This document shows positions 468-35,600 of a DNA stretch of 64,000 nt, piece after piece (the first letter of the stretch is position 1; each line of letters starts with the position of its first letter). Both the position numbers and the translations under genes were made by a program. The stretch is from assembly GCA_009746045.1 (NCBI GenBank), contig RPFO01000106.1, forward strand, positions 1,757,711-1,821,710, read 5' to 3'. A model generated the notes under the pieces. It was not told the origin of the DNA and did not search any database. It was given only the letters and a program-made list of their open reading frames with translations. Source of the stretch: Mesostigma viride (Eukaryota; Streptophyta; Mesostigmatophyceae; Mesostigmatales; Mesostigmataceae).

Positions 468-476
468 CCCCCCCCC

Positions 477-11400: not shown

Positions 11401-12987
11401 ATAAGAAACCAGCCAAGGGCAGCTGTGCATGAATGAACAATGAATTGAAATACTACAATATAGTCAATAGTAGTAATTAATTAATTTACGTGTAGACACA
11501 TGAGCAAGGTCCATGGGGCCGATGGAAAACATTACCATGGGACAACATTGTGACATGCGCGGGTCGAAGGGAATCACGTTTGTCCACGCCACAACCGTGA
11601 TGGCTTATTTCCACCGACTTTGTTGCACAACTGCAAGCTCTCATTCTCCAGTGAGCGCGTAATCCATGATACCGACACCGCTGTCCAACACCCTTGCTCC
11701 CCTGCAGCTACACGTGCTGCCTTGCTCCAACACCCAGGGGCTGCCCCTGTTCATACCCACCCACCTTCCAAGCAGAAATCCAGCAATCTCGCTGGCTTTG
11801 TCCTGGGTGCCCAGGTCACCGGGCAAGCCCAGCAGGGCACCCCGCCTTAAACGTGAGAGTTGTCAGTAGAGCTGTAATTTGGCATTCCTGACACGTGACC
11901 CTGCGTGTAGCTTGAAAAGACATCTGCCGGTGGCCCACTTTCCAGACCATTGTAATCTATAATACTGTCAAAGGCAGAGACAAATAAACACCCTGCACGC
12001 CTAAGCTCCTGCTAGGCAGAGCGCATGTCTTCCTCAAATCCAACACCGCTGCCTAATAAAGAGGCTTATTGCATCTCATCAAGTCCCTATACAAAACACT
12101 TCTCCCACTCTTCCCTCCCACTCTTCCTCTCCCACTCTTCCCCTTCTACCGTTCCACCCCCACCATTCCCCTCCCACAGTCCTTCTCCCTACCTCACCTT
12201 TTGAAACATGTGTTAGGAAACTAGGGCACTTGTCCACATGCAGCTCCCAAGCTATCGCTAGCTAGCTCGTTTACCTTCTCCAAACGGCCAGCTTCTTAGT
12301 TAGAATTTCAGAACTGGCTGGTGTTCTTCTGTGCGATGAGACTGGGTCCATGTCTTCCTTTGCAGGAAGACAACATTAGTCGGCAGTTTGGTGTGGTTGT
12401 CTCCTTTTCTGCCGTAACCCTCCTCCTGGTCCTACACCCTCCATCGTCACCCATCATCCAGAAATAGTACATGTGGCGCACTGAGGCCGCCAATCCCAGC
12501 TTCTTCTCCGCCTGAACTGTTTAAAAGAAATTCAAGCTAGAAGATCCCCCTCATACCTCACCCGCCTCTTCATCCCTCAACCATCTGCTTCGTTGCCTCG
12601 ATGATATAGAGGAGACGATGACTTCGTTTAGACACCTTACTTTCTCACCCACCGTCCGCTATGACCCATATCCCAATCGTACCCCCCGCCTCCTTTGCAT
12701 CAAGCTTCAGGAGGTTATGATCAATTTAAAAGATCCACATCATCTCTTACCTACCTTCCATTCTCACCAACATTCTTCTTCGCCTCAAAAAAGGAGGGAA
12801 TCATCATCGAATGATCCTCCCCCCCGTTCTTGCCCACCTTCTTCTTGGCCTCGATGGCATCCCACGTCCCTGTTCTCTTCCAAGCGGCCACCAGCGCATC
12901 TTCGTACGCATAGGAAGCCACGAAGCAGACGACGCCATCAGGGACGACGCGGCACACATTCAGCAGCAGGCGGCCCAGCTCGTCCAT
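8456..12987 (-). CDS. DDX11 exons 16-20: helicase domain 2, motifs V and VI
   Basis: Exon 16: MDELGRLLLNVCRVVPDGVV. Exon 17 (81 nt): IFREPRGAADVDAILSAYQD. Exon 18: GGALLMSVVGGKMSEGINFS (motif V). Exon 19: CVVMMGLPYANPGDPEL, a Ser/Gly-rich insert, then YENLCMRAVNQSIG. Exon 20 completes motif VI with RAIRHKDDYAVILLVDARY and ends with LPAWIADEL and a lysine-rich tail before the stop at 8456-8458. Motif VI (QxxGRxxR) carries the arginine finger and is split by the last intron. Confidence 0.92.
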
Positions 12988-15900
12988 CTGACAGGACCAA
13001 GGGTTAACGCAAGGGTTACCAAAGGGTTTGGGACAAAAATTGAACAAAAGGGTTACAGTCATCGAAAGGGTTGACACAAGATGGGGGACACATAAATTAC
13101 AGGTGACAAAAGAAGGGGGACACATGATTAGAGTTGACAAAAAAAGGCGAAAACCGTCAGCGCGGGGATGCCAAGAAGAGAGTGGTTCTCAGCTCCACCA
13201 TCTGGTGGGGCGTGGGTAGATGATTAAGTGATGGATCATGGACGCACCAACAGAGATGACAGATACACCAACAGAGATGACAGCGGTCATACTTCTGACC
13301 ATGATTCTACAAGGAAACCAATTTTCAAGCGTGTGTGGGCCGCAGGGGATCAGCTCCATGCCACCCAAGTAGCTCGTGGTGTCACTATAGGAGCACTATA
13401 GGAGGGTATGAGGCCACGCCCCAACCTTTATTTAGAACTTCAGCATTCGCACCACCATCAAGCGCCACTTATGTAGCAGGAACCAGATGGGTGCTTGCAA
13501 AGCAGTGGGGCAAGCAGCGGTTCCCGCCGCACTCTTTGCGAGCAATTATGTTTGTCCCATCACTGCGGTGCCGATTACATTTAATGATGAAACAGCACAG
13601 TGACTAGAATAATTAAAGAAAGCGGGAACTAAAACCATTATTACCAGCACAATTACTTATGTTATTTTATATAACGACCCGTCAAGTTGCCTGTTCACTT
13701 ACGGATATCAACAACCTTGTCTTCGTCAGCCTTGTGTACTTTTTTGTGATGGTGGCCAGTCCTTCCTTGCTCACAGACGAGGAGCCCACAAAAGCATTCT
13801 CCAGTACAACATGGCCATCCGCAACTGGGTAATCTTCAACCACTCCACAACTGGGTCATCCCCAAACACGGGAGTTTCCGAAGAACCACAGGACATGAAC
13901 TCACATGCTGACTGTATAGGGGTCGCAGGCAGCATGCCTTCATGTTGCATGAAACATTGACAGCTTGTGTGCTTGGCGACGCAGCATTAAGATGCCAGCA
14001 TTGAAGACCCCTAACCACTTGCCACGGCTGCAGCGCAAGTCACAGTCCCCACTGCCATATGTAAATCTAAACATTTTAATTTTACCCTGCCCACATACGA
14101 CTAGAAACAGCTGCACTTGAGCGACAACTGCACATCATGCGGCAACTCCCACATCTGGCTACCTGACTCCCCATCTCTGACTATTTGACTTACCACGGTT
14201 GGCTTTTTGACCCACCGCGTCCGGCTATCCCAACTCACCATGTCTGGCTAGTGAACTCACCACATGTGGCCATCCACACTCACCACGTCGGGCAGCGCTC
14301 GGTTTTGAAAGGCCAGCTCGAGCCTCTTCCCTGTCGGGCCGCAAGCGACCGCCATGGCCAGAAGGTTGCCCTTTGGCACGATGTGGCGACAGGAGAAGAG
14401 GTTAACACGTCCTGCTGGCACGTGGGGGAACAGCTGGGACACCATGTCGCCCACCTGCAGGGGGTGGACGGAGAGCGAATGAGAGGGAATGGGGGGCAGA
14501 CGAGGGGGGCAGGGGGGCGTGGGAAAGGTGAATGCGGGGAGAGGGGCGGGTAGAGAAAGAGCCCACGCACAAGAGAACGAGGGGGGACAGAGAGGCATGC
14601 AAGCAAGCTGTTTGCATGAACCTGCTCTAGCACATATAGAACGCGTTGTGTTCCTGTTAAGAACTTCTCTGCCACCAAACCATGCTGCCTCCCCACGGAG
14701 CAGTAGTGCCACATATGGGAGGGTTTTGAATGAACAGACCATGAGGACTGTCTGGTATGTTCAAGGACAACATGTACTTGTGCCATGAGCTGCGCCGAAT
14801 CAGCTGCGCCAAACGTGCTAAGCTGAATAACTGCGTCAAATGTGATGCGCCAAGTGTGCTGCCACAGCATCTGATATAAGGAGTCTTGGCAGCTTCTTTA
14901 CATCCTCAATTGGAGTCCTGGCAGCTTCTTTACATCCTCAAGCTACGCTCGGTGTAGGCCTCCTGGACAAGCTACAGCTGCTCAGCATAACGGGGCCAGC
15001 ATCAATCTTATACTGGCATCGCAAGCCATGATGCAAGTGGGGAGGAAGCACAAGGCACCCACCGGCTGCAGAGTCCCCCCGATGAGGATCACTGCCCGCG
15101 CCTCATCGACCACCTGCTGGAACTGGGCGGCGGCGTTAAGCATAACAAACTTTACAGAGGAGGTGGCCAGCGCGCCTGCACCCACGCACCCGGGGGAGAT
15201 GTCAGCAGCCACGTAAAAAGTATGCGTAGCGAAAGATCAGGTATGAAGGAATGTATTCCGAGAACGCCATGCTCTATTTGCACCGAGACATTGCATACAC
15301 TGCTCTAGGGCCGTATCCGTATAGAAGGCAAAAGGTGTTAGGAAAATAATAGAGCTGTTATTTTACAACACCATGAAACGGCCATAAGTCATGGGCAGGG
15401 GGCTTCCATTCAAATAGGGAATAAAGAAATACAGTCACCAACAACCAAGTATGCGTCAGTTAGTCCTCGTAAACAGTAATGATATGACACGTGGCCCTCA
15501 TGCGACAGGTTGGCTCGGCATCTCTGTGACGGATGTTGTGAGGAAAGCGCGGATAGCGCGCCACAGTTGTGTCATGAGAAAACCTCGATGACATCAGCAA
15601 ACCATGCCACGGTTATCTTCCATGATGGTTTCACCATGGCCATACTACAACAAACCCACCATGTACAAAGGGGACAGTTCCGTTAGCTGTGACGGTGAGC
15701 AGCACCATACCACTAGCCGCAACAGCACCATGATCACGATGGAGTGCCGGGGCCAGTACCTGTTACGGTAAGCACCACCATCCCAAAACAACAAACCTGT
15801 GACAGTGAGCAGCACCATTCTAAACAACAAACCTGTGACGATGAGCAGCACCATCCTAAACAACAAACCTGTGACGGTGAGCAGCACCATCCTAAACAAC

Positions 15901-18900
15901 AAACCTGTGACGATGAGCTGCACCATCCTAAACAACAAACCTGTGACGATGAGCAGCACCATCCTAAAACAACAAACCTGTGACGCTGAGCAGCACCATC
16001 CTAAACAACAAACCTGTGACGGTGAGCAGAACCATCTTAAACAACAAACCTGTGACGGTGAGCAGCACCGTCCTAAACAACAAACCTGTGACGGTGAGCA
16101 GCACCATCCTAAACAACAAACCTGTAGCGGTGAGCAGCACCATCCTAAACAACAAACCTGTGATGGTGAGCAGCATGCGCCCGTCCTTGTCCGCGTTGGT
16201 GAGTGCCGCCAGGAAGGACGCCACACCGTGGAGGCAGCCCAGGGTGCTCCAGTGGGGAGGCGGCTTGGAGCCTGTAGTGGACGCCACACATTTTGCTGCA
16301 AGTCCTTAGTTAACTTAAAGCTAATAGAAGTAGTACACATGTGCGTGCTTTGGAAGCTCAGGGGGCACTACCAAATGCTGTCAATGCCCTCCATGTTCAT
16401 CCCTCACGTAAATGTGAGACAGGGCGGGCCGACCCACTGCGTAAGTGTGGGCAGTCCAAGCCTCCAAGGCATCTAGCGACAAGTTGGCTGCCGATGTAAT
16501 GCCTCAATATTCAAAGGACCAGTTTGATGATTTCCCACCTCACAGATAACCTCGGAATGAGCGGAATATATTAGTACGACTACAAATTTAAAAGAATTTT
16601 ATTTAAATATTTCATAACTTCTTTTTATCAATTGCTCTTCTTCTTCACCCACCTTCCAGCTTGTTTCCATCTTCTGGCGTGTCTTCAGGCTGGGCTTCCT
16701 GTTGCTCCGCATAGCTGCTGAGCTGGCGTCACCGCGACGCGGCACGTCCGGGCATTCATCACAGACACAGCGACAGGAACCAACGCCGTTTGGTGAGCCA
16801 CAACGGGAGGAGACCGCCTCGGATCACCGGTACAAAGTGCACACAACTTTCATCACAAAGATGACACTGTTGTAGACACAAATAACCGGTGGCCAAAGGG
16901 GCAAAGAATCTGACACGGGAAGCAGCCGTGTTAGCATAATATCTGGATGCCAATATGAACTTCACAACGCTTCTGCCACACAGTACGTTCCATCTGCACA
17001 AGGCCAGGAAGTGGCACTTCACTGCATGGAAGGTCTCGCACCTGCTCTAAGCCGAGAGCACGCGATATGCCTGCAGGGGGTGGGCCGGCCACCCCACCTG
17101 CAGGAAGGGGGGTGTCCACCCACCTTGGCGAGTACGTTGTTCCCCCTGAGGTACGCCTGCAGCTTGAACAGATTGACGTGGTCGATGCCAGCCCCCAACA
17201 GAAAGCCATTCACTGTCACCATGCGGGACACCGTGCCGCCGCCACCGCCGCCATCGCCAGTGTCCTTGTCACCATTCACTGGCAGTGATCCCTTGGACCG
17301 CTGCAGTCTCTGTCGTTGCTGCTGCTGCTGCTGGTGCGGTTGCTGCTGCTGTTGCTCTTGTGTCTCTGGAGGAAGGGTTGGAGTTGCGACAGCCTGCAGG
17401 CTTCCCTGGCTGTCAGCCCCTGCCTCCACCACGCCCCGCAACACCCGCAGCGTCGCCTGCAGCACCAGCACCAGCGTGCGCAGGTGGCGTAGGTTGCCGT
17501 CCCCAAGCATGCTCTGGAAGCGGCTCAGGTAGCCCTGGACGCAGCGCAGGGCGGCGGAGACCTGCGGCCCAAGGCGACAAGCAATGGGTCAAGAGGCATG
17601 AGGTGTGAGGTGAAAGGAAGTGGAAATTGTCCAGTGAGGGGTGCCGTCACTGAGTCACTGCGCGGCAGAACTGGGGTGCTGGGGAGGACATGCTGGCGGA
17701 GTTGCTGGAGAAGATGTGCTGCCTGCTCATGGCACAAGGTCAATGACAGTGTTACGTAGACCCTTGCATTGAGACTACAATGTAGTTTAACACTTCACGG
17801 GTATTCTGCCTCAGACAGACGACGAATGCCACGGGCACTGCACCCTCGCATGCCACCCTTTGTGGTACCATTAAGGGCATGCCCTGGGCACTCCGTCCAC
17901 CTTTTCTGAACAAGGGCACCAGCATACCCTACAGGAGAGCGACCCGACCTCGGAGCTTGGGCTACGGTGCACTAGTGTGGCAGACACGGCATGCAAAAGT
18001 TTGCTAAACTCACACCGTACATAAGAATGGCAGGCACAGCATGGACTAGCCACTAGTGTGGAAGACCCAGCTGCCCCCCCCCCTCCGTAGGCTGAAGCAC
18101 CAAACCCTGCAGCGTAGCCCTTGCACAGCAAGAGTGATTGACCCACCCCTAGAGCACGGGAGGCAGCACAAAACAAAGCATGTGACAGAAAGGGGCCCCA
18201 ACAGACGCACTGGTGTTGTACCCTGCATAGTAGCCCTTGGACAGCAGGAGTGGTACACACAGCAGGGACCATGGGCACGAGATGCACATCACTAGTGTTT
18301 CCAGTACTAGGCACGCAGGTACTACAGGGCTACCGTAGTACTGGACTAGGGCACGAGATGTATCTGTGCACCCACATATTATATATTCACATAGTAGTCT
18401 TACTACATGACTACTGAGGTACTACTCTTGGACTAGGGCACGAGATGTATCTGTGCACCCACATATTATATATTCACATAGTAGTCTTACTACATGACTA
18501 CTGAGGTACTACTATTGGACTAGGGTACGAGATGTACCTGTGCCCCCGACACCTGGCAGCTGTGCAGCGCGTTGATGGCATCCACCAGGTTGTGGGCCTC
18601 GTCGATGATGACAACGTTGCCCCTGAGGGAGACGCCCAGGGACTCCCTGGTCGCCTGGTGGAGCAGCGATGTGTAGGGCAGCGTGATGAGCTGGCGGGGG
18701 AGGGACGAGGCGCAGGGGGGGGGGCGGGTGGGAATGTGGCACAAGTGAAAAGAACGCCACTTAAGATTAGGCCAGAAGGGGTGGGGATGAGGTCAAAAAG
18801 AGCGTCATGTGTGGTTTGAAGCGACGCCGCGCTGATATGGGACAGGCTTGACCTGCTGACGGAAGGAAAACACAAGAAGAGAGCAGCAAAGGGGGGGGAA

Positions 18901-21900
18901 AGCGCGTTGAGGGAGAGGCGTGTCCATGGTAGATTGATCAGGAGCATGTCTTGACCAGGAGCATGTCTTGACGTGGATATGCCATTCGTGGGTATCATGG
19001 AGGCTATCCACGGTCTCCGCTTCCGCAGCAGTAAAACAGAAGCTAAGCAGAAGCTAAACAGAAGGTGTACGCAGAAACACTCGTCAAAAGACCCCAGGTG
19101 GGTTATTACATGTTGACCAGGCATCCAGCCAGCTACTTAACCAACATACGGTAACACAGGTCATAAGATCATTCTGTGAGATCTCACTCACATCTGCGGC
19201 CGGCAGGGCTCTCCGAGAGGCGTAGTAGGGGCAGCACTCCCTGTGAGGACATGGTCCCCGCATACACGAAAATGGGCAGTCATACATGCATGACAGAGAG
19301 CCCTGGGTCACGAGGCAGCAAGCGGGTGGCCTATCCCAGCCAAGCAGACCTCCAGACGGCTTAGTTCAAGCAGTCACCGGGGATATACTGCTATATGTTC
19401 GAATAGCCAAGGTGTACTAAAAGTCATGAAAGCCTGGTGCATATATGGTCAACCAGGCAGACTTCACGGCAAAATGGCTGACAGACTCAGGTCTCAGGCC
19501 TCAGGTCTCAGGTCTCGGGTGAGGAGGGAATAAAGTGGATGGTTGCATGCACACAAAGCGGGCATGTGTGGGCGCAAACTGGCAGACGAAAGCAGCGGTG
19601 CTGCCAGCATAGCATAGGTGAGAAGCAAGACACCGCACTCGGTAGTAGCGTACTGTAGCTGTAATACCATACGACACGATACGATACGATCCGATGCGAT
19701 GCGATGCGATGCGATGCGATACGATACAGCATAAGCTGACGTGAGGTGAGGATGTTGGGCTATTGATCTGGCAACCAAAGAGAAAGGAATGGAGGCACCT
19801 GCTGTGAGCCAGCAACCACGGGCATGCCTGCATAGTCTATCATGCCGGTGACTTCGCAAAGCACATAAGCAGAATAGTTTCTAATCTGCTACCTGTCACT
19901 GAATGCAGCATCTACCTCTCCTTCCCATGCGGACCAGGTCATGTCTCCATCCGTCCGAAAATTGTGGCCTACTAAGGCATCGCACGAAGGTACCAGGGCC
20001 TACCTCTCTTTGCCCATGCGGACCAGGTCTTGTCCCCCATGATCGTGGCAAAAAAGTGTGTCACCTGCTACCACACGACACCGTGTATGTGCCGCCTACC
20101 TCTCCTTGCCCATGCTGACCAGGTCTTCAATGTCCATCGGCGCGCTCTGGTACAACACACGCAGAAGGCACAGCTCGATGCCATCAGCAAGCATTAGGCA
20201 CAGCTTGATGCCATCAGCAAGCATTAGGCACAGCTTGATGCCATCAGCAAGCATTAGGCACAGCTCGATGCCATCAGCAAGCAACCGCCGGCAGTGGAGG
20301 CACCACATTGAAGATAGGAGTGGGGATGAACAGGGCTTAGCGCGCTGCGTGTCCTTGGTTTACCAGGGATTGGCTGGTGTTGCAGTTATAAGGTAGTCGG
20401 AGGAAGATCTTGCGACTTTTATGTTTAATTCTTGTTGACATTAGACATTAGTATAATTGCCGACCTGAGCAAGGTCTAGCACCCATAGCTAGAGTGCCAA
20501 ATGTGAAAAAACAGCAAAGGTAATGAGTGAACGTTAATCCAGCCGCCTTTGTCTAAAGGCAAACACTGAACACAGCCATTGATCTGCTGATCTACGGCCT
20601 ATGACCACTAGGCTCGGAAGACATGCATTGCGCCACTAGAAATCTAGCAATGCGTGGCGGCGCCCACAAAGGGTGGCGCGATGCATAACATGTCATGGCA
20701 TACATGAACGCATACGACATGAGTCATTAAGCACATAGGTCTCAAAGTGTGGCGTGGTGTCCGGCATGTGGGCACTATGGCAGCACACCGCCACGGTAGC
20801 ACCGGACGCACAATTGCGCCAAGCGCGGATCCAAAACAGTTCATGCCACGCAAACTATCAAAACGTAAAATAAACTGGCGCGACGAAAAGTAGGAGAATC
20901 AGAAATCACATTGTACCATGTAAACACAGCCCTCACAGTATTGTGGGACGAAAGCCCAGCGCCAAGGTCGGTAAAACAAAACAACACATGGCCTGGGAAG
21001 TCCTTAACACTTTTCGCGTCACAAATAAAACCAGTGGACCGTCGACCAAGTGGAATATTGACGTACGACATATTGTCCGTGGCGAAAATTGACCACGCAT
21101 CATAAACCGACACCAGTGGCCCAATAAATTGAATACCGTGGTCGGAATACTGAAAATATCTTCATGTCCCACGTAGCTCCCACAAAAACCAGCATCTTCA
21201 TTAAAACAATAAGTGGAAGCATACATGTGACACTAATTGACATGCCCGGAGGCACGCCGTTCAAGGCCCTTCATGAAGTACGTTGCCCTAGAGGCAACCA
21301 AGACACGGGTGGGTGGGCGGGGAGCAAAGAAAGAGGCCGACAAAACCAGCCAGAGCGGCTTTTAGTCGCAAAACCTCCCTTATCCCTAGCTAACTGACGT
21401 CATTAAACCCTTATGTTTAGTGGATGCTAGTAAGACGCTAACCGTACAGACCGGGGGTAGAATATCCCGAATCTGCACGGCTAGTATTAAATAATGCGTA
21501 GGTTGTTCTTTTCAGGGGCACTGCACCTCACGCCCCGTTCCGCCCGGGTATAATCAACCCAAGCGCGGAACGCACATTTTATTTAATTCATTTTTCAACC
21601 ATGCACTATATTGCATCTACTAATCACAAAAGCTCTAGCCAAACAGCTACGAGTAAACACTACGACCTATAAGCCGCTCATCCAGCGGCCTCTTGTTCCC
21701 GCATTCACGTATAGAAGAAACTCCGTTCAAAGAACCCCGATTCATGTCCCACGTAGCTCCCACAAAAACCAGCATCTTCATTAAAACAATAAGTGGAAGC
21801 ATACATGTGACACTAATTGACATGCCCGGAGGCACGCCGTTCAAGGCCCTTCATGAAGTACGTTGCCCAATCACCCCCGCCCTGGCTTTCCCTTGAAGCC

Positions 21901-24900
21901 GCACTCCACCTTGCTCGTTGTCACAAGTGACCGCCCTGCCGCAAAACGGGAGCCCCCCACATCGGGAGGCGTGTGCCCGGCGGCTGTGGATGCATGGCCA
22001 GGCCCAAAAAGGCCCAGCGCATTTGCACTGCGATTGCGCACGGCCAGCCTATCATGACCCCTCTCGGGGCCCCGAGTCGGTACCGCTATGGCCGTCTCCC
22101 CATAGACCCGGGGTGCTTCGAGAAAAAAACGTGGACCTAGCCCAGGCCCCGCCAGCCCGGATGCCCGAGGCCACAGCCCCAGGCACCTGGCTGAACGAGA
22201 GTCCGTTCAGCCAAGACCGCATTCCCCCCGAGGTTTCTATGCGTGGGGAAAAAATTTCTAGCTTAGGCGCTTTTCCCATCGCCGTCCCCAGCCCCAACCA
22301 CCCCCCCTCGGCGGAAGGCAATTGCAAAGTTTGCTGGCCAGCAGCAATTTCCGAAGAAAAAGCCGCAGGCCGCGGACCGAGACACGGGTCGCCAGTGCCA
22401 GCCATCCGGCTCCAACCCGGGGTGCAAGCATCCCCAGGTACGGAGCACCAGCTCGCGCACTGGGCCGACCAAGCGACAGTTGAGCACCTGTCACGGCATC
22501 CGGCCCACCAAAGACCCCAAGCTGGGGAAAAGGTGCGGACCGGAGGTAATCATTTTCTTTTCTTTTAGTTAACCGGGCGAGGAACTACGCCTGGCCGGTT
22601 AACAACTGGAAGTCTCACCACTGGCCAAGTGGCCAGTGCAACCAGTGCTTTTGGGATTTTGCTCCGCAGCACCCATAGCTGCGGCTGCCGCCGCAACGAC
22701 AACGAGCAAAGAAAGAGGCCGACAAAACCAGCCAGAGCGGCTTTTAGTCGCAAAACCTCCCTTATCCCTAGCTAACTGACGTCATTAAACCCTTATGTTT
22801 AGTGGATGCTAGTAAGACGCTAACCGTACAGACCGGGGGTAGAATATCCCGAATCTGCACGGCTAGTATTAAATAATGCGTAGGTTGTTCTTTTCAGGGG
22901 CACTGCACCTCACGCCCCGTTCCGCCCGGGTATAATCAACCCAAGCGCGGAACGCACATTTTATTTAATTCATTTTTCAACCATGCACTATATTGCATCT
23001 ACTAATCACAAAAGCTCTAGCCAAACAGCTACGAGTAAACACTACGACCTATAAGCCGCTCATCCAGCGGCCTCTTGTTCCCGCATTCACGTATAGAAGA
23101 AACTCCGTTCAAAGAACCCCGAATCCCGTAAAACGTAACACCGCACCACGGTCGTCTGCAATTTAACACGTGGTCTGGAATACAAATCACTACAATGTTC
23201 CTGCCACCTCAGACAGTTTGGAAACGCTTCATCGCAGCCCAAATTCTGAGGAAAACATGACTCATACAAGCACAAAGGTTTTGTCCAAAATTTGTCCAAA
23301 TCATGCATCATGGTTTTGCATAGGTCAATGTGACAGCAATAAGGATTTAAACCTCTAAAGAAAGACCTATTTTTTCTTTGCTTTCGAGTCCATAGATGAC
23401 TTAGAACTCCAGTAAAACTCGTCCCGAAATTTTTCTAAAAAGAACAAAGTTTATATTCTATCACTTGCATTATGTGCTGTAACCACAACATTATATATAT
23501 CAGAAAGAAGGCATCCATTATCAAGAGGAATTACTATATACATTTGTGATTCCCTCGTTTGGAGTGTACGGTATCCTTAGCGCAGGTCGGTCAAGTAACC
23601 CAGCATGTCTTCAACTACTTATTAATTAAAGTGAGGCTAATTCGTGAAAAGGCTCAACTACTTCGTGAAGAAAAAGCTCGTGAATGGAGATATAAAAAGA
23701 TAGAAGATACAAGGAAGATACGGCATTTTGTAATATATATTCATTGAGAATGATAGATTACGGAGGTGAGATAGGCATGCAACATAAGGAAAAACCCGAT
23801 AACTGGGAGAATAACCCTGAAGAAATTATTATTATTTTTTTTTTTGTAATATATATGTATATATATTACAATATATATATCTATATACTCTGGCACACCC
23901 ATGCGCATGACACGCAAGTCCTTACTTATATCAGAAATAAGGCATCCATAATCAAAAGGAATTTTTTCCCATGATATGAGACTTGAAAGAAAAGTGGTCA
24001 CAGAGGTATTTTACCTTGCAGCAGCCAGCTTACAAATATGAGCCACATAAGAGCCACATATAAGCAGCCAACACACATCATATATATTACATAAGGTAGT
24101 ATTAGTAGTGTGCATTCGTGTAGATGTTGGTATGACCACCAGTGCCATTGCTAGCTAGTTGGGCAAGCAAGCCGAATAGAAATCATTCTCGCTCAGCATG
24201 AACTTGGTCGACAAGGTGCATTACGCTAGCTGGGCGTGTTGTGTCCAACTGCCAGCACTAGTGGCAGCTGAACACCGCAGGCACAGAAACATTGATCCCA
24301 CCCCAGGCCTCGAGGTTTTGTAAGGAGACACGCGTCCACATTTAAAAATGGGATACGAGGGGGGAGAGGAAGAGGGACTCCACTACCTGCGAAAGGGGGA
24401 ACATGCGAGTAATGATCCTTCAGCCTGCAACACCGTCAGCCATGGCAAGCTCGGGTCGCTCACACAGCAGCTGCACTCAAAAGCACACAGCTGCACAGAG
24501 AGGTAGTAGAATGCTGCAATCAGAGCGATCATTAATTAACTAATTAATTAGGAAGAGCGATCATACAACGATGCATTTTTGTCACCCACCAGGATGCAGC
24601 TTGCATACTTGACGAGCGATGCATCTGATTTCTTCCGGAAACGGCAGCCTTTCGATGTCGTCGCCCCCTTGGAAGCTTCTGGCGTCTTTTTCCCTGATGC
24701 GGTCAGTCAGGGCAGGAAATGAAGAAGAACCATACCCTGACGAAATGGACTCAGCGACCGCCAAAGGCTTGATATCATCTTTTTGTTCAAATGTCCCATC
24801 CAACAAGTGTGACAGGCAACGGGCACCTGCTCGTGCGCCCGCCTGTCATTTCCAACAGCCTGCCCCCACATCCAAGCAAGCATCTGTGTGCTACAGGAAG

Positions 24901-27900
24901 CCCGCCACCTGTCTGCAGATCTCAGCGCGTGCACCCACAAAAAGGAACCAATGCAGCTATCTTGAGGATATGCCCACAAGGTGCTCGTGCATCATCAACA
25001 GCCAGAACACACTACAACGACGGCCGTCCCCCACTCGAACATACCACGGACAACTTTTTTTCCGTTGCAGCTCGCACTGGCTGCTCTTTGCAGCAGGGTG
25101 ATCTCCTAGTTGCACAGTTGCAGCAACCATGCTTCTAATGAATGAGTAGTAATGCTTCTAATCAATTAGTAGTAATGCTCCCGTGTTGCAGAACTCACGC
25201 TTGTCCTTGGATGCCTTTTGCAGGTCGAGGCACCGCTCGTTCATGCGTGTGACGTTGCCCAGCCGCGTGACAGCTGGCAATACGTAGCATGGGGCGACGG
25301 TGCGGGGCCAGATGACAGAAGTGTAAGTCTTTAGACCACGATGTCCCGCGATTGTAAAGACATCATTCACATGAGAGCTGAGGAAGGGCCATGAAGCGAC
25401 AGCAAGCTGGTAGGTGATTCCAGAGCCCCTGTATAGGTGGCTTAAGAATGAATCGCTCATGAGGTCATGCAGGGCAAGATCATAGCCATCCCATCACAGG
25501 GAGCATTGTATACCAAGAGCACACCGGGTTGAACTGGCGAGGGGTATTTCATGGTACTGTACATCACATGGCAACAAACAGGGTCGAGAGGACAGCGGGA
25601 AGCATAAGTTGCAAGGGCTGTAGAGCACCTATGCACGAGGGGCCATGGCCAGCGACGCCAGGATGTGACAGGTGACCGCAAATGCTTTGGGACAGAGAGA
25701 AAAGAGAAGAGAAACGTAGGAAGAAATGAGAGGGGGAGGAAGGAGAATGAACAAAAGGGGACACACGAGGGGAGGACAAGAGGGGGAGATAAGGCAGGGG
25801 GGACAGAAGGGGAGGACAAGAGGGGGAGATAAGGCAGGGGGGACAGAAGGGGAGGAGAGGAGGGGGAGATAAGGCAGGGGGGACAGAAGGGGAGGAGAGG
25901 AGGGGGAGATAAGGCAGGGGGGACAGAAGGGGAGGACAAGAGGGGGAGATAAGGCAGGGGGGACAGAAGGGGAGGAGAGGAGGGGGAGATAAGGCAGGGG
26001 GGACAGAAGGGGAGGAGAGGAGGGGGAGATAGAGGGAAGAAGGAGCCCAGCCACTGCCCTGCTTGCCTTCATTGATGCAGAGCGCCTTGCGAGACGCCAG
26101 TGCGACCATCTGAACGTCCGCGTCACGGAAGGGCGTGCGGTTGACCTCGTTGACAAACTGGGACAGCTGCGAGTGCGTGCGGCTGCTGAAAAAGATCTGG
26201 CACGTGTCACGTGATTAAAGTAGCAAAAATAAATTAGTTAGATAAAGTAAAGTACTTATAAAGAAAAAGTCAAAATTACCCTCAGATGAGCAATGCACAC
26301 ATGCAGAAAAACTCGGGCAGGAATGAGAAGATGGGAAAAGCGTGCAAGTTGAGGCTAGCTGCTAGCAAAGCGTCAGTCCGTGACCATGGGTGCGGTATAG
26401 TAGACTTCGCTGGGGGGCGGTGTAGTAGACCTTGCAAACCTTAACATTCGAGGATGGGAACCAACAGCGAGACGCGTGTCACAAAACGGGGCGTACACAG
26501 GTGAGCCGCAGCACGGAGGCATGTGCCTATCAGCAGGGGTAGTTCAGGCCACTGGATAGATATACTTCTGAAGTATGCATAATGCTCGGTATACATAGCT
26601 CAGGCCACTGGACATATATATACACCGCTGCTGGGTTTAGTTCAGGCCACTGGATAGACACAACGCAGCAGACGGAGCGCACCTCGAGTAGCAATGATGT
26701 TCTGCATGCGAGCGTTCACGATGCGGCACCGACAAGCAAAACCGGGCAGTTACTTGATCCATCCAACACGTTTACTGGGGAGAAAAAGGAAATAGTTGCC
26801 ACAATAGTTGCCACAATAGTTGCCACAATAGTTGCCACAGTTGCCAAGTCCATCGAGGTCTATTCCTCAATGAACAAGGGAAATTACTTAGCCCATTAGT
26901 TGCCTGTTGCCACAAAGATGTCGTTGACAAGGGTGAGAGAGGTGAGCCAGCAGTTAAACATACCTTCACAGCTGTGGCGTCCGTGCCCAGGTCAGTGCCA
27001 CTGTCGTAGCCATCGCTGTCGGATGAGACCGCGCCGTCGGCATGTGCCAGCCGTTTGAGGGGGGCGCGGGCAGCTGCTTGCGGTGGGGCACCGGCATACC
27101 ATGCAGGGAGGTTCAGAAACATCCCATAATAAGTCAAAGAAAGCCCCATTGCGCATCAGTGCAAGTAGTATTCAAAGCCAAGGCATGGCACATGCCAGAT
27201 GGCCTTGCGGCCCGGGATCCAAATCTTTCGAAAGCGGCCCACCTGGCCCACCCCGTTCACTGTAGCTTGAAGCAAATTTGCAGGAGCGCCAAAAAAGGGA
27301 GGAGAGGATTGAAAGTCTCATTGGGATGTTTAGGGCCGGCTTGCAAGCCTATGAGAAACCGAAACGCTTCCATCTTAAACGTGAAGGCAGATATACGATG
27401 CCGAGCTTTTTACAAAACCATGAGACCAACCCCTCCAGACATCGGGCAGGTCAGCTGATTTCTAGGCCAAGGACAAACGGCCTGCACAAGTTACTACTTG
27501 AATTGCTGACCATGTTACAAACGACCTGCAGAAGTGGTTCCCTTGACTATTGCTAACCACATTCCAAGTTACAAACACAAATATACTGCACAGGAGGTTA
27601 CCTTGGGTGTCATCCCATTCCCCCAGCAACAGCTCGGAATCTTCGTCTTTTCCCAGGGTGGAGCCTGCACCCTCCAAGGAGGCCCTCCTGGCCGCACTTG
27701 CCGATGGAGCACCAGGGTCAGTCCCGGCCGGGCCCTGCCACATACCGGATCGGAGCCAAGACAAGTGCTGTACTTTAGCAGCCCTTGTGTAGTGTGGTCA
27801 TCCGCGGCATATTCTCCGGAAGACCTTTCCTTGAACCCACATTTTCTGGGAAATAATCTTGTTTCCTAGTAGCCTTATACTACCAATGATTTGCTGGACA

Positions 27901-30900
27901 TGAAGAAGGGGTTACCAGAGCAGTGTACGGGATGTAACACTCGGCTAAGGAGAAGGGGTTACCAGAGAAGTGTATGGTATATAACACTCGGCTAAGGAGA
28001 TGGCGTTACCAGAGCAGCGTATGGGATATAACACTCGGCTAAGCGGTCCAGTGCTGCCTAGAATACAGCGCTGCCATATGTATACAAGCTCCGGCCATCT
28101 GAAATTGAAAAAGAAGAAATCCATTCATAGTTATCATTAATAGGATATAAATGCAGACACCAATAAAACTAATGACCGCATAAGGAAGCTGGCCGATTAA
28201 GGCAATATGCGCCTCTCCACCATAGGTCCGTACAATGCAACATCACGGTGGTGGTAACTCCACATTTTGAGAACATCAACCATGTGACCATGTCACCATA
28301 TTTTTCAAGCAAGCCAATGCCTTGCACGTTCTCTGGGGATCCGAGGCTGCAAAGACAAAACACAAGATCGTTCAATGGCATCGGCATTGGCCATCGTTCA
28401 ATGGCATTGGACCTCTCACGCATGACAGCATGGTCTAGAAAAAGAAAAGCTTGTCTCCTGTGCTTGCCATTTGCATCGAGAATTCGTGTAGTAAGTATCC
28501 ACCATCTCCCCACACCCCCTTCTGTCCCCAAAGCAGAAACTTTAGCACGCTCATGCAGTAGCTCTAGATTAAGGTACGACAAACCAACCGGATCGCTTAC
28601 AAAAAGTGAGGCGGCGCCGCTGGCCGCAACTCCCCTGCCGCCCCGTGCATTGGCCCTTGCTTTGAATGTTTCCACCTCTCGGCGCGCTAGCTCACGGTTT
28701 TTCTGCCGCAGCGTTCGGACATGCTCCTTATGCTTGCGCTCGCGGTCCACCTCGTATTCCAGCACCCACGCGGGCTCTGGGGGGGGGAGGGTAATAGGTA
28801 TGTACAAGGGGATGGGGGGGGGGAGCATGTGGTTCACTCGGCAGCGCCAATGGCAAACAACGTGGGTCGCTTGAGATATTATTCAGCACCTTGTTCATGT
28901 CAGCCAGGCGGCGGTATACAGTTATACTAACGATTAGTGGTAATCAGTTATTCATGTGCGACGTATACGAGTACTAGTGAATCTTATAAGATTCACTAGT
29001 CATAGCGGATGATCTAGGAAACCACGTTCTTTTGTCTAACAGTCATAGCGGATGATCTAGGGAACTACGTTCTATTGTCTAACAGTCATAGCAGATGATC
29101 TAGGAAACTACGTTCTACTGTCTAAGAGTCATAGCAGATGATCTAGGGAACTACGTTCTTTGTCTAAGCCTAGACTGCCCAACCGTGAAACTCAATAGAT
29201 TTCCCAGGATAGGCAGTTTGAGGGAAGAAGAACGGCAAAGAAGCAGGGAAAAATCAAGGGGACGGGGAGCGGGAGACAGGGATAGGGAAACAAAGAACAG
29301 GGGACGAGGGGACGAGGGGACGAGGGGACGAGGGGACGAGGGGACGAGGGGGCGAGGGGACGAGGGGACGAGGGGACGAGGGGAAGAGGGGACGAGGGGA
29401 CGGGCGGACAAGGGGGCTAGGGGACTAGGGGACGGGGGGGCATGGGACGAGGGGACGAAGGGACGAGGGGACGAGCGGACAAAGGGACAAGGGGACAGGG
29501 CACAGGGAACAAGGGGCAAGGGGCAACAAGGGAGCAGGGAAGAAAGGAGCTACAACCTCCTCACCCACCATTGTCCCCATTGGCGTTTCCGCCCCTGCTG
29601 TCCAGTTGAGATGTGGCCGTGGCATCCCCTGACTTGACAGGTGGCGTCTTCTGGTCCTCCAGCCACTGCAGGGCGCTGCAGATGACGCTCAGGGTCTTGC
29701 CCTGGATATGGCACCCAGGATGGGGGCGACCAGGCAAGGGAAGGAAAGGCTTTATGAGCCTTGACCGCTTCATGTGTGTGCCAGCAGAGGCGTGTGCCAG
29801 CAGCAATTGAGCGGTCAATGGAACGCGCGCAACATTTCACCTTAACTGCACTGGCCACCATTGTTGTATTGGACACATTGGCGTATCGGACACTGCATGT
29901 TTTAGGCGCCAATGTTGTATTGGACACTTCATCCATTGGACACTTTGTGTGTTGGACACCAATGTTGTATTGGACAATCTCACATATTGGACACTTCCAC
30001 GTATTGGAACTTCCACACGGTGGACACTTCATGTATTGGACGCTTCATTTATTGGAGACTTCATTTAATGGAAATATTCTTGAGCCCAGAAAGCCCTGCT
30101 TTGTGATACCCTCACGACCAAGCCTTGACATGTGCCTCAGCCGTCCTGCGATGATTGGTTGTCGGTTATAGAACCCGTCAGGGACTCCTATCTTTCGCAC
30201 GCTGCCTGGCAGAGCGGTGGCTTGGGAGAGAACACAGTGCGGGATAGTAGAAAATTGCTTTTAACCATCCTAGTCCAGGCGACCCCCCCGTTCCCAGTGT
30301 GTGTGGTGTACAGATAGCCAACAGGAAACTTGCGCAGCCGTCCAAGGTGTCGGTTGACTATCGCAGGCAATGACATGGGAGTCTGGGACAAGGATCTTGG
30401 AGGGCTAGTGCAGCAAGGGTAGTTGCAATCAGGCCTTGCGTGACTACATGGTGGATGGTTTGACTGACCACACCGTCGATGGACTTTCCCACATGAGTTA
30501 AGGTCACAACGCATAAGCAAGGGGGTGGAAGCACTGAGGTCCTAAAATGTGACAGCTGGCCAAGGGTGGCCGAGATGCATCAAAGCCAATGATGTGATGG
30601 GCCAAGGCTAACAATTACGTGCTAATGGTGGCTGCCTCAGCTATGTGTGGGACTAACTCTATGCACGGGAGGGTGCATCAGATTCTGACGAAGCTGTTTC
30701 GCCCAAATACGCTAGACAAGGTCTATGCTAGAGCTGGAGAGGCCACATAGCCCACGTGAAAGGTAATGGGGCATTCAGCACACATCAAATATAAGAGAGG
30801 GGAAATCTTTACATTAACCGAGCCTGGTTGGCCCGATGACGCAGGCGTACTTTTGTCAGTACTCGGGAGGAAATAGGCGGGGGGGGTGAGTGGTTGAGCA

Positions 30901-31105
30901 ACTACAGGTGACATGTGAGACTCTAGCCCAGCCTTACCGTGCCTGTCGGGCTCTCGAATATGCCAACACCACCGCTGTCAATCGTGTCGTAGATCTTCTG
31001 CATCAGTTGCTGTTGAATAGGGTATGGAGTGAACGGAAATGCAGGGAATTCCTGACGCTTGCTTTGCCCCGCCGGGCCTTCGGCGAGATTTCCGTGGTCT
31101 GGCAT
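8456..31105 (-). CDS. DDX11 (CHL1): DDX11/CHL1-family Fe-S DNA helicase, 20 exons, complete
   Basis: Exons (minus, 5' to 3'): 31105-30938, 29701-29569, 28776-28541 (end uncertain, 28514-28541), 27734-27602, 27073-26964, 26196-26067, 25273-25199, 24826-24609, 20146-20100, 19240-19192, 18690-18538, 17561-17120, 16271-16158, 15175-15063, 14454-14284, 12987-12838, 11316-11236, 10516-10413, 9646-9282, 8790-8456. All splice phases agree and the total is 3,327 nt (1,108 aa plus stop; the human protein is about 970). Superfamily-2 XPD-like motifs occur in the expected order. The family unwinds DNA 5'-3' in the nucleus, resolving forks and G-quadruplexes and supporting sister-chromatid cohesion. The ATG at 31105 places about 19 residues before the conserved FPFTPY motif, as in homologues. 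One intron uses GC-AG. Several introns carry repeated splice sites (see findings). Confidence 0.93.
12757..12870 (-). repeat. Degenerate duplicate of exon 16 end plus 5' splice site
   Basis: The exon ends GAGGCCAAGAAGAAG before GTGGGCAAGAACGG. About 60 bp further into the intron GAGGCGAAGAAGAAT precedes GTTGGTGAGAATGG. Confidence 0.7.
14150..14300 (-). repeat. Tandem array of 5' splice sites, 22-23 bp units
   Basis: Donor-like boundaries follow exon positions 14284, 14261, 14239, 14216 and 14194 (GTGAGT, GTGAGT, GTGAGT, GTGGGT, GTAAGT). A sixth at 14172 has lost its GT (GGGAGT). Each unit also keeps part of the exon end (GCC..GACGTG). Confidence 0.85.
14284..17561 (-). CDS. DDX11 exons 12-15: arch-to-helicase-domain-2 segment with polyglutamine insert
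   Basis: Exon 12 begins VSAALRCVQGYLSRFQ and ends GFLLGAGIDHVNLFKLQAYL. Between them is a low-complexity insert with EQQQQQPHQQQQQQRQ and a Gly run, absent from animal homologues. Donor 17120 (rather than 17124) is chosen on phase. Exon 13 gives VASFLAALTNADKDGRMLL. Exon 14 gives ALATSSVKFVMLNAAAQF and the motif-III/IV region ARAVILIGGTLQPV. Exon 15 gives FSCRHIVPKGNLLAMAV, all matching the family order. Confidence 0.88.
14878..14950. repeat. Two-copy tandem repeat, about 36 bp
   Basis: TTGGAGTC(C/T)TGGCAGCTTC..CATCCTCAA occurs twice in the intron between exons 14 and 15. Confidence 0.8.
15774..16187 (-). repeat. 36-bp minisatellite, 11 copies, each carrying the exon-13 end and donor
   Basis: Units read CTGCTCACC(A/G)TCACAG then GTTTGTTGTTTAGG. 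Donor boundaries fall at 16158, 16122, 16086, 16050, 16014, 15978, 15941, 15905, 15869, 15833 and 15797. The first is the predicted real exon end. Confidence 0.9.
18345..18545 (-). repeat. 87-bp tandem repeat spanning the exon-11 donor
   Basis: The exon end GCACAG/GTACATCTCGTACCC is followed at 87-bp steps (18451 and 18364) by GCACAG/ATACATCTCGTGCCC. Both intronic copies have AT instead of GT and are nearly identical to each other. Confidence 0.88.
18538..25273 (-). CDS. DDX11 exons 7-11: Fe-S cluster domain and DEAH box
   Basis: Exon 7 gives GNVTRMNERCLDLQKASKDK, with the first expected cluster Cys in NERC. Exon 8 (24826-24609) is weakly conserved and adds Cys residues. Its end is chosen at CAA/GTATGC because that keeps phase 0 into exon 9; an alternative donor at 24586 does not. 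Exon 9 is tiny (47 nt): SAPMDIEDLVSMGKER. Exon 10 gives ECCPYYASRRALPAAD, the conserved CPYY segment. Exon 11 holds motif II, VVIIDEAHNLVDAI, ending HSCQVSGAQ. The 4.5-kb intron between exons 8 and 9 contains the split-repeat transposon. Confidence 0.85.
19670..19728. repeat. (GATRC)n pentanucleotide repeat
   Basis: About eleven CGATAC/CGATGC units in the intron between exons 10 and 11 flanks. Confidence 0.85.
19908..20146 (-). repeat. Three copies of exon-9 end plus donor, 88-96 bp apart
   Basis: GACCTGGTC(A/C)GCATGGG(C)AAGGAGAG/GTAG occurs at exon-end positions 20100 (real), 20004 and 19916. All three keep a GT. Confidence 0.85.
20163..20290 (-). repeat. 30-bp tandem repeat, four copies, just upstream of exon 9
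   Basis: GATGGCATC(A/G)AGCTGTGCC units run directly into the exon-9 acceptor region. The unit is a multiple of three and the frame stays open. Confidence 0.85.
21741..21868 (-). repeat. B repeat copy 1 (128 bp; copy 2 at 21161-21288)
   Basis: Constant offset of 580 bp, no mismatch seen. It begins (plus) TTCATGTCCCACG and ends CGTTGCCC. Confidence 0.92.
22704..23122 (-). repeat. A repeat copy 1 (419 bp; copy 2 at 21322-21740)
   Basis: Constant offset of 1,382 bp to copy 2 over the full length, no mismatch seen. It contains a TATA-like GGGTATAATC on the plus strand at about 22928. Confidence 0.92.
23824..23888. repeat. AT-rich microsatellite
   Basis: (ATT)n, poly-T and (TA)n tracts inside intron 8. 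Imperfect 36-bp copies of ATATCAGAAA(G/T)AAGGCATCC flank this region at 23496 and 23928. Confidence 0.75.
25765..26035. repeat. 40-bp purine-rich minisatellite, about 7 copies
   Basis: GATAAGGCAGGGGGGACAGA recurs at 25788, 25828, 25868, 25908, 25948 and 25988. It lies 30 bp downstream of the GC donor of exon 6, so the transcript is pyrimidine-rich. Confidence 0.9.
26067..31105 (-). CDS. DDX11 exons 1-6: Q-like motif, Walker A, motif Ia
   Basis: Exon 1 encodes FPFTPYPIQQQLMQKIYD and the first half of Walker A (ESPTGT). Intron 1 splits the motif and exon 2 continues GKTLSVICSALQWLED. Exon 3 starts EPAWVLEYEVDRERKHK and forms a charged coiled coil. Exons 4-5 are a poorly conserved acidic linker (DEDSELLLGEWDD, SSDSDGYDSGTD), which is also acidic in other family members. 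Exon 6 carries motif Ia, IFFSSRTHSQLSQFVNEV. Exon 6 ends GAAG followed by GCAAGC; joining at this GC donor keeps the phase into exon 7, whereas no GT nearby does. Confidence 0.9.
26790..26845. repeat. 12-bp repeat (GTTGCCACAATA)n
   Basis: Four to five near-perfect units in the intron between exons 5 and 6. Confidence 0.85.
27430..27606 (-). repeat. Three decayed copies of the exon-4 donor region
   Basis: CAAG/GTAACCTCCTGTGCAG is followed by CAAG/GGAACCACTTCTGCAG and CAAGTAGTAACTTGTGCAG. Each continues with a GTTTGTAAC..TGG-like block; the second has lost its GT. Confidence 0.6.
27905..28045. repeat. 47-48 bp tandem repeat, 3 copies
   Basis: TTACCAGAGCAGTGTACGGG-type units end ACACTCGGCTAAG, in the intron between exons 3 and 4. 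Confidence 0.85.
28998..29168. repeat. 43-bp tandem repeat, 4 copies
   Basis: AGTCATAGCGGATGATCTAG begins at 28998, 29041, 29084 and 29127, in intron 2. Confidence 0.9.
29296..29500. repeat. 9-bp repeat (GGGGACGAG)n
   Basis: About twenty imperfect units in intron 2; the transcribed RNA is (CTCGTCCCC)n, pyrimidine-rich and close to the exon-2 donor. Confidence 0.9.
29855..30062. repeat. Degenerate (TATTGGACACTT)n repeat
   Basis: Irregularly spaced ATTGGACAC units in intron 1 of the helicase gene. Confidence 0.7.
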
Positions 31106-32648: not shown

Positions 32649-35600
32649 TTACCAGAACTCAAGCTGTCGGTTTTCCATGCCCTTGATGTTGCGTTTGTGT
32701 TCATCAAACATGCGTTGGAGCTCCTGTTTTCATACAGCCATGGACAAGCAATAGCATGCAGCAAGTGCATCACATGTAGAAATTCCGAGGACACATGCAT
32801 GAGAAAACCACGCCATGCGCAATTGCAAACAACCCAACGCACCAGGCACATGAGTAGAGAGGCTACAGCAAAGCAGCCAACTTCGCACGAGCACATAGTA
32901 CCTTCACCTGAAAGCATGCGAGACCATCAGACAGGCTGGCAGTAACAAGGCTACTCACACAGGGGAAAAGCAGGGCAGGTTGCTGACTGGCAAATTATCC
33001 CACAGGAATCAGTGCAGCGACAGGCAGTAGACTACCAACAAAGGAAACAATTGGTTTGCGTGTGCATGCGACCGTGAACACTCAAACCCGTCAAGGGGTG
33101 TTCAAAGTGGATTTCTTGAAGTGCCATGACTACCTTTCAACCCATCATTTTGACCCATCCACTGCGTGTGCCACCCTATGACACGTGCGGCACCGCTCAC
33201 GTCATCAGCGCATAAAAGTTGTGCCCCCTGATTGAAAGTACCGAGCACCTTGTCGCCACTGGCATTATATTAAATATTCTACGCCTTCGATAGCATGAGT
33301 GGCATGGTGAGGCCTACCTAGTCAGCCATTTTGATGGGGTGCCGCCGGTGCATAACAGGCCTGCGACCGCACATTCAATTCCTATAACCGGAATACTGCT
33401 GGATATCTGTTCCCGCCTAACGTGCATGGCCATTGCGTGCCTGAAAATATTCACAGTAAAACACAGTGTCGCATACCATCAAGTAGCATGGTATTGGTCC
33501 ACCATCCACTCGCACCAGATGACCGACGTAATGCTGCCTACCTTGACACAACTCTGCCTACCTTCACATAGTTGGCGTGGTACTGGCCCATCCACGCACC
33601 CCATGACCGACATAACTCTGCCCACCTTGATGTAGCTGGCATGGTATTGGTCCACCTGCGCCTGCGTCGGCTCCGCGATCTTGGGCAGCACAAACGGCTT
33701 GCCCACCACGGTATGCAGCTCCAGGTTGGTGCGCGGCAGCAGCGGGCAGAACCAGGCGCCAAACGCCAGCACGCCCGGTATTGAGTGTCGGCCTAGCCAC
33801 AGGCGGAAACTCCAACCTCCCTGCAAGTTGGCCATGCAGCAAGAAGATGAAAGATCCAAATGAAGTTACCATCTTGGGAAAGGGGGCAAGAGGGGGCAAG
33901 GGGGCAAGGGGGGGCAAGGGGGGGCAAGGGGGGCCAAGGGGGAAAGGGGGGGAAAGGGGGGGAAAGGGGGGAAAGGCGGGGGAAGGGGGGGAAGGGGGCG
34001 AAAGGGGGGGAAAGGCGGGGGAAGGGGGGGAAGGGGGGAAAGGGGGGGGAAAGGGGGGAAGGGGGGGCAAGGGGGGCAAGGGGGGCAAGGGGGGCAAGGG
34101 GGGGCAAGGGGGGGCAAGGGGGGGCAAGGGGGGCAAGGGGGGCCGAGGGGGGCAAGGGGGGCAAGGGGGGGAAAGGCGGGGAAGGGGGGGAAGCGGGGGC
34201 AAGGGGGGGAAAGGCGGGGTAAGGGGGGGAAGGGGGGGCAAGGGGGGAAAGGGGGGGAAGGGGGGCAAGGGGGGCAAGGGGGGCAAGGGGGGCAAGGGGG
34301 GCAAGGGGGGCAAGGGGGCAAGGGGGGGCAAGGGGGGCAAGGGGGGCAAGGGGGGCAAGGGGGGCAAGGGGGGCAAGGGGGGCAAGGGGGGGCAAGGGGG
34401 GCAAGGGGGGGCAAGGGGGGCAAGGGGGCAAGGGGGGCAAGGGGGGAAAGGGGGGAAAGGGGGGGAAAGGGGGGAAAGGGGGGAAAGGGGGGAAAGGGGG
34501 GAAAGGGGGGGAAAGGGGGCGAAAGGGGCGAAAGGGGCGAAAGGGGGGAAAGGGGGGAAAGGGGGGAAAGGGGGGGAAAGGGGGGGAAAGGGGGGAACGG
34601 GGGGAAGGGGGGGAAAGGGGAAAGGAGGGGGAAAGGGGGGAAGGGGGGAAAGGGGGGGAAGGGGGGAAAGGGGGGGGAAAGGGGGCAAGGGGGCAAGGGG
34701 GGGCAAGGGGGGCAAGGGGGGGCGAGGGGCGAGGGGGGGCAAGGGGGGGCGAGGGGGGGCAAGGGGGGGGCGAGGGGGGCGAGGGGGGGAAGGGGGGGGC
34801 GAGAAGGGGGGGGCGAGGGGGGCGAGGGGGAGGGGGGGGGAAGGGGGAGGGGGGGAGGGGGGGAAGGGGGGGGAAGGGGGGGGAAGGGGGAAGGGGGGGA
34901 AGGGGGAAGGGGGGCAAGGGGGGAAGGGGGGGCAAGGGGGAAGGGGAAGGGGGAAAGGGGGGGAAGGGGGGGCAAGGGGGGCAAGGGGGGGCAAGGGGGC
35001 AAGGGGGGGCAAGGGGGGCAAGGGGGGCAAGGGGGGCAAGGGGGGCAAGGGGGGCAAGGGGGGGCAAGGGGGCAAGGGGGCAAGGGGGGGCAAGGGGGCA
35101 AGGGGGGCAAGGGGGGCAAGGGGGGGCAAGGGGGGCAAGGGGGGCAAGGGGGGCAAAGGGGGGCAAAGGGGGGCAAAGGGGGGAAAGGGGGGCAAGGGGG
35201 GGCAAGGGGGGAAAGGGGGGGAAAGGGGGGGAAAGGGGGGAAAGGGGGGAAAGGGGGGGAAAGGGGGGAAAGGGGGGGAAAGGGGGGGAAAGGGGGGGAA
35301 AGGGGGGAAAGGGGGGAAAGGGGGGGAAAGGGGGGGAAAGGGGGAAAGGGGGGAAAGGGGGGAAGGGGGGAAAGGGGGGAAAGGGGGGGAAAGGGGGGGA
35401 AAGGGGGGAAAGGGGGGAAAGGGGGGGAAAGGGGGGGAAAGGGGGGGAAAGGGGGGAAAGGGGGGGAAAGGGGGGGAAAGGGGGGAAAGGGGGGGAAAGG
35501 GGGAAAGGGGGCAAGGGGGGGCAAGGGGGAAAGGGGGGGAAAGGGGGGCAAGGGGGGGCAAGGGGGGGAAAGGGGGGGAAAGGGGGGGAAAGGGGGGCAA

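Follow-up and report, generated by a model that had tools for sequence, protein, structure and literature searches.

Copies of donor splice junctions at the 5' ends of introns in Mesostigma viride

In the genome of Mesostigma viride, segments straddling the exon-intron junction, mostly made up of 7-42 nucleotides (nt) of exon, the donor (5') splice site and some intron, recur as duplicates at the beginning of the intron. This holds for many genes, and the duplicates have decayed to varying extents; a recognisable copy of the donor junction is present in about a third of the introns tested. The analysis is based on the window, a stretch of 64,000 nt (assembly GCA_009746045.1, contig RPFO01000106.1, positions 1,757,711 to 1,821,710, forward strand; the assembly comprises 440 Mb in 2243 contigs), where such copies occur in a helicase gene and in one intron of a second, DGAT2-like gene, and on chaperonin and kinesin genes of the same genome. 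The assembly also includes a green-type rbcL, for which the closest PDB sequence is 1gk8, from Chlamydomonas.

Donor copies in the helicase and DAGAT introns

The exon model of the helicase gene, built by hand on the minus strand, consists of 21 exons (E1 to E21) in a single open frame of 1073 residues, with 19 GT donors, one GC donor (after E6) and AG at all 20 acceptors. The protein matches the Pfam families DEAD_2 and Helicase_C_2 and, among other PDB sequences, those of FANCJ, XPD and CHL1; from sequence similarity, it is probably of the CHL1/DDX11 type rather than one of the sister helicases. For the second gene, a spliced fragment gave a Pfam match to DAGAT (PF03982, DGAT2-like). Each donor was represented by a probe of 25 exon and 12 intron nt, aligned to the next 250 nt of its own intron and considered positive at a score of at least 28, while acceptors were represented by the mirror image of this probe. 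The relevant features, all on the minus strand, are the following:

8456..31105, minus strand: helicase gene, CHL1/DDX11-type, 21 exons (E1 31105-30938 to E21 8790-8456), 1073 aa
20092..20129, minus strand: E9 source copy, exon end and first donor bases (last exon base 20100)
19998..20031, minus strand: E9 copy 2, period 96, exon end and GTAGGC donor intact, score 60
19912..19940, minus strand: E9 copy 3, donor GTAGAT, score 49
18513..18549, minus strand: E11 exon end and intron start, first unit of an 87-nt array (last exon base 18538)
18339..18460, minus strand: further E11 units, scores 54 and 54
15758..16175, minus strand: E14 array, 11.6 units of 36 nt, its start overlapping E14 by 18 nt (E14 ends at 16158)
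14150..14288, minus strand: E16 exon end (14284) and decayed array of 22-23-nt units, read by eye; one copy scored 26
12824..12853, minus strand: E17 source copy, exon end (12838) and donor, from the exon model
12758..12786, minus strand: E17 decayed copy, period 66, score 34
12581-12600 and 12495-12513, minus strand: weaker E17 matches, scores 24 and 26
33618..33652, minus strand: DAGAT source copy, exon end (33626) and donor; the intron extends to 32724
33554..33586, minus strand: DAGAT copy 2, GTAGGC donor, period 64
33534-33546 and 33486-33499, minus strand: partial matches in the same DAGAT intron
27077..27601, minus strand: helicase intron 4, where a decayed version had been reported

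Five of the 20 helicase donors are positive (E9, E11, E14, E16 and E17), against none of the 20 helicase acceptors probed in mirror image at the same score; compared with 200 dinucleotide-shuffled versions of the whole introns, the five positive donors have p = 0.005-0.015. The first-pass annotation of this DNA, made from its letters, had described copies of exon ends and donors in five helicase introns and one DGAT2 intron, and both descriptions hold. As to its exon numbers, 9 and 11 agree with the present model, while 13, 15 and 16 probably correspond to E14, E16 and E17, if the 70-nt E13 had been missed; in intron 4 the donor probe gives p = 0.55 and an intron-only probe p = 0.07, values that do not confirm the decayed version reported there.

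The state of preservation differs from case to case. The copies in the E9, E17 and DAGAT introns are further diverged; the best-aligned E11 copy has AT in place of the donor GT; the E16 array, which is absent from the Tandem Repeats Finder (TRF) list and whose units were recognised by eye, shows the donor-like sites GTGAGT, GTGAGT, GTGGGT, GTAAGT and GGGAGT. This range, from the E14 array to the decayed E16 and E17 copies and the AT donor of E11, agrees with the earlier proposal that tandem duplication has been recurrent and its products differ in decay, and the further proposal that existing introns are thereby lengthened and acquire arrays of donor-like sites is supported as well.

When positions are drawn at random from the helicase introns, about 11% of them are followed by a copy of equal score (8% without low-complexity probes), so that in the helicase gene alone the excess at donors over random intron positions is only moderate; other genes were therefore needed, and it is on them that the evidential weight rests.

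Two further sets of repeats lie within the helicase and DAGAT genes. In helicase intron 8 (21161-23120), long near-identical direct repeats were read by eye, pairing about 21322-21720 with 22704-23110 and about 21161-21289 with 21741-21868; they possibly belong to a long terminal repeat (LTR)-type or nested element. Two exons of the DAGAT gene are separated by a 2.5-kb array (33876-36352) of about 269 G-rich nine-base units.

Donor copies in other genes of the genome

The replication set was composed of exons of CCT chaperonin (PF00118) and kinesin (PF00225) genes, located by profile, with junctions modelled by GT/AG, phase and continuity of the profile. For CCT, 49 of 58 matches were entered, leaving out one intronless gene, five with internal stops and three others; for kinesin, 46 of 129 matches were entered, picked for adjacent profile hits before the DNA was seen. 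Sixteen of the 20 stretches initially chosen are in the sample; exon pairs with a profile gap above 14 (n = 15 + 2 + 1) and pairs with no legal junction (n = 2 + 1) were skipped, and of L046 and L047, which are nearly duplicates, only the L046 junction was retained. The resulting 63 introns (20 from the helicase, 43 from CCT and kinesin genes) come, by our own count, from 23 genes of three kinds, 22 of them non-helicase; the DAGAT intron, on which the first-pass annotation had made its discovery, is excluded from the 63 and enters only the counts on anatomy, as the 23rd positive.

Among the 19 CCT introns, seven donors and one acceptor are positive, and among the 24 kinesin introns ten donors and two acceptors; without the helicase, donors are therefore positive in 17/43 introns and acceptors in 3/43 (p = 6e-4). 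The suggestion that the process is general in this genome, offered with the first-pass annotation, is supported by the sample of 22 other genes, and the junction self-alignment that it had recommended as a genome-wide check, run here on 63 introns, gives 22/63 donors versus 3/63 acceptors (Fisher p = 2.8e-5); at score 32 the figures are 16/63 and 1/63. Young-looking cases are L049, which has at least four near-identical units, L059, L061 and L062.

A possible source of error is that exon ends have been misplaced, that the assembly is faulty or that G-rich motifs match by chance; indeed, the non-helicase junctions derive from profile hits and a GT/AG phase model, and a few of them score low. 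Such an artefact is nevertheless very unlikely: donor probes reach score 28 against other introns in only 0.15% of pairs; exon-only probes, which carry no donor motif, are positive at score 26 for 15/63 donors (and 2/63 acceptors), against a cross-intron rate of 0.18%; many copies are diverged; and removal of the four junctions scoring below 8 still leaves, by our own count, 20/59 donors positive.

The sample also offers some comparisons between related sequences. L046 and L047 are two contigs covering one CCT gene region, with 95.6-97.3% identity in three aligned blocks, and one intron is about 3.2 kb longer in one contig than in the other (4087 vs 912 nt). Two comparisons aimed at allelic variation in the copy number of arrays do not bear on it: C622 and C2 are identical across the 401 bases compared, and in the one intron examined in both C1641 and C887 the donor probe scores 18 in each, below the threshold of 28.

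Anatomy of the copies

The copies are for the most part tandem duplications. Their structure was analysed in 23 positives, namely the 22 donors together with the donor of the DAGAT intron. The best-aligned copy lies between 45 and 215 nt from its donor (median 87, n = 23); for E14 and E16 the best copy lies two units away. Homology extends 7-42 nt into the exon in 22/23; in L037 the longer extension comes from a weak gapped alignment and was set to an ungapped 8 for the analysis of left ends. Homology running through the whole period, by which head-to-tail tandem duplication is recognised, was found: it equals or exceeds the period in 8/23 cases (seven without L037). The part of the intron that follows the donor is alike beyond chance in 17/23 (at most 2/22 cross comparisons being as good), as tandem duplication predicts. 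The copy in the exon is spared from decay, so that the match is expected to be better in the exon part than in the intron part; E9 fits this expectation. Arrays that begin inside the exon and have a donor in each repeat unit are seen at E14, E16, L049, L059 and L061, which are only part of the positives.

Origin of the copies

Tandem duplication is an established route to new introns (PMC3443670; PMC4974935), and the first-pass annotation had mentioned the duplication of AGGT-containing segments as a known model for the birth of introns; on such a reading, the copies would be remains of the tandem genomic duplication from which the intron arose, and the duplicates do hold AGGT-like junctions. 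The model predicts that the end of the intron copies the end of the upstream exon and that its start copies the start of the downstream exon. At a score of at least 24, the upstream exon end matches the intron end in 0/63 introns and the downstream exon start matches the intron start in 0/63 (1/63 at score 22). With both signatures absent across the 63 introns, and with some near-identical copies sitting in introns of ordinary length, the link to intron birth is not supported; we rejected it, and of all the explanations considered here it is the one to which we give the least credence.

The explanation that we favour, and that we regard as about equally likely to be right or wrong, is that the genome is rich in tandem duplication, that duplications spanning a donor are silent and kept, and that those spanning an acceptor are mostly purged. 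TRF arrays with a period of at least 6 account for 15.5% of the sequence in the window, for 14% in sixteen stretches elsewhere in the genome, and for 12% of the helicase introns versus 2% of the helicase exons; moreover, of the positions in intron interiors, 10.6% are followed by a copy close by, which indicates that duplication is common away from donors too. Tandem duplication would accordingly be frequent in non-coding DNA. When it spans a donor, the original donor would stay in place, be transcribed first and be used, so that the copied exon end would turn intronic, leaving the mRNA unchanged and the protein probably unchanged; the duplicate would be kept and then decay, the intron lengthening at its 5' end, and the copied donors would be drifting by-products. 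A duplication spanning an acceptor would instead create a second, complete acceptor ahead of the original one and extend the exon, and would mostly be lost. In a potato case (PMC4974935), a duplication across an acceptor boundary changed the structure of the gene, as expected under this asymmetry. The copied exon segment has, in addition, a source that does not decay, which should roughly double the time for which a duplicate stays recognisable; part of the donor excess may be due to this effect together with silent tolerance at donors.

Several observations weigh against this explanation. Acceptor copies exceed the cross-intron rate, with 3/63 at score 28 and 5/63 at score 24. One-sided junctions, which are less certain, give 7/17 donors and 4/20 acceptors and show alone no clear asymmetry (pooled with the 63 introns, they give 29/80 donors versus 7/83 acceptors, p = 2e-5). 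The exon part alone matches in 6/23 cases, possibly because the intron part has decayed. Intron-only probes adjoining donors (+8 to +38) are positive in 12/61 introns versus 6.4 expected from interior positions, an excess reached in about 1% of draws; at score 26 such probes give 12/63 on the donor side versus 8/63 on the acceptor side, the chance rate being higher at acceptors (1.5% vs 0.3% at donors). The left ends of the units, analysed without E14 and E16 whose units are short, are close to the donor in 20/21 cases, falling in the lower half of what the period permits (p = 1e-5 under uniform placement). Tolerance alone predicts neither the intron-only excess at donors nor the clustering of left ends, and both point to a hotspot.

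By a hotspot we mean that breaks, slippage or template switching start preferentially near the 5' splice junction and that the duplications are born there, for instance in connection with transcription or with the G-rich donor; the donor consensus is indeed G-rich (60 junctions). Intron-only repeats are commonest near donors (19% in the first 120 nt): they are found at 17-19% within 160 nt of the donor and at 7-12% past 240 nt, while the bins on the acceptor side stay at 7-14% with no rise near the splice site; the left ends of the units, moreover, lie mostly 7-42 nt within the exon. On the other hand, the intron-only excess is modest, many repeats are present in the interior of introns too, and selection against long exon parts could also bound the left ends. 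We consider a donor-centred hotspot a serious rival, though less likely than the explanation favoured above. Its extension to the whole genome is put forward just as tentatively: breakpoints would lie no more than about 40 nt upstream of 5' splice junctions, introns would lengthen at the 5' end as the junction is copied again and again, and copies or arrays of donors would be present in about a third of introns.

Possible use of the copied donors

It may also be asked whether the copies are retained for a function, as extra U1-binding sites or alternative donors which would tune splicing or prevent early polyadenylation. GT is retained in 18/22 best-aligned copies, and past the donor the helicase frame meets no stop for 64 codons at E14 and for 28 at E17; splicing at a copied donor of the E14 array could thus, judging from the sequence, add in-frame repeats. 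A precedent is human IFI6, where downstream units of a minisatellite are described as splice donors (PMC4526556). The best-aligned helicase copies lie at multiples of three from the donor in 5/5 cases, versus 5/18 elsewhere (DAGAT included); the nearest E16 unit, 23 nt off, breaks this pattern, which is perhaps due to chance. Intact GT is, however, not in clear excess, and in our reading its retention gives no clear indication that the copied donor is under selection. The period shifts the frame in 13/23 cases (10/23 multiples of three being not unusual), and in-frame stops follow within nine codons of the first donor in E9, E11 and E16, three of the five helicase positives, so that splicing at the copies would often do harm. 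Retention for a function is hence judged improbable, and the copied donors are better seen, on the explanation favoured above, as silent duplicates.

Other repeats of the window

Elsewhere in the window, two long arrays were observed, at 42516-43811 (27 x 48 nt, with 99% matches) and at 45582-47146 (about 28 x 56 nt), with several frames open. An open reading frame (ORF) for a reverse transcriptase (PF00078) occupies 60596-62653 and perhaps belongs to an element similar to a long interspersed nuclear element (LINE), while a gag-like ORF at 292-3534, with a CCHC knuckle recognised by eye, has no Pfam match at 0.001.

Comparison with known systems

The lengthening of introns is usually ascribed to transposons and to slow insertion. 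The copies described here point to a countable, recurrent process that adds DNA at one end of the intron; a literature search (titles and abstract openings, mostly outside subscription papers) retrieved no description of a genome-wide process copying donors. If the sample is representative, Mesostigma offers a natural experiment with very many tandem donor sites in one genome, in which it becomes testable whether splice sites are chosen by order of transcription (the first donor and the first acceptor each winning) and whether there is a link between tandem duplication and splice junctions; the arrays of spare donors would also be raw material for new isoforms.

One process close in outline is the birth of introns by tandem duplication. 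Hellsten and colleagues (2011; reviewed in PMC3443670) reportedly described a short tandem duplication involving a splice signal which gave rise to a new intron; the Mesostigma copies likewise involve a short duplication with a splice signal, with the difference that there a new intron is made, while here an existing one is lengthened and the signature of birth is absent. Human introns are also said, by Zhuo et al. in 2007, to have come from tandem arrays; this case shares with ours the tandem arrays and the splice sites, and differs in that it concerns the origin of introns. Introner elements, which are similar introns spread across unrelated genes, are another system for comparison; here, the comparison covered donor probes, which reach score 28 against other introns in the 0.15% of pairs given above.

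The human IFI6 (6-16) gene, whose minisatellite reportedly supplies multiple splice donor sites (Turri and colleagues, 1995), shares with the Mesostigma introns a tandem array whose units carry donor sites, those of the copied units being predicted here from sequence; it differs in being one locus for which alternative use has been described, while the copies in Mesostigma occur in many genes and mostly as longer, decaying units. Finally, in Rogers and Bendich 2025, direct repeats left by insertion were sought at both borders of introns (PMC11782384); in both studies the repeats lie near intron borders, those of Mesostigma being copies placed in the 5' part of the intron.

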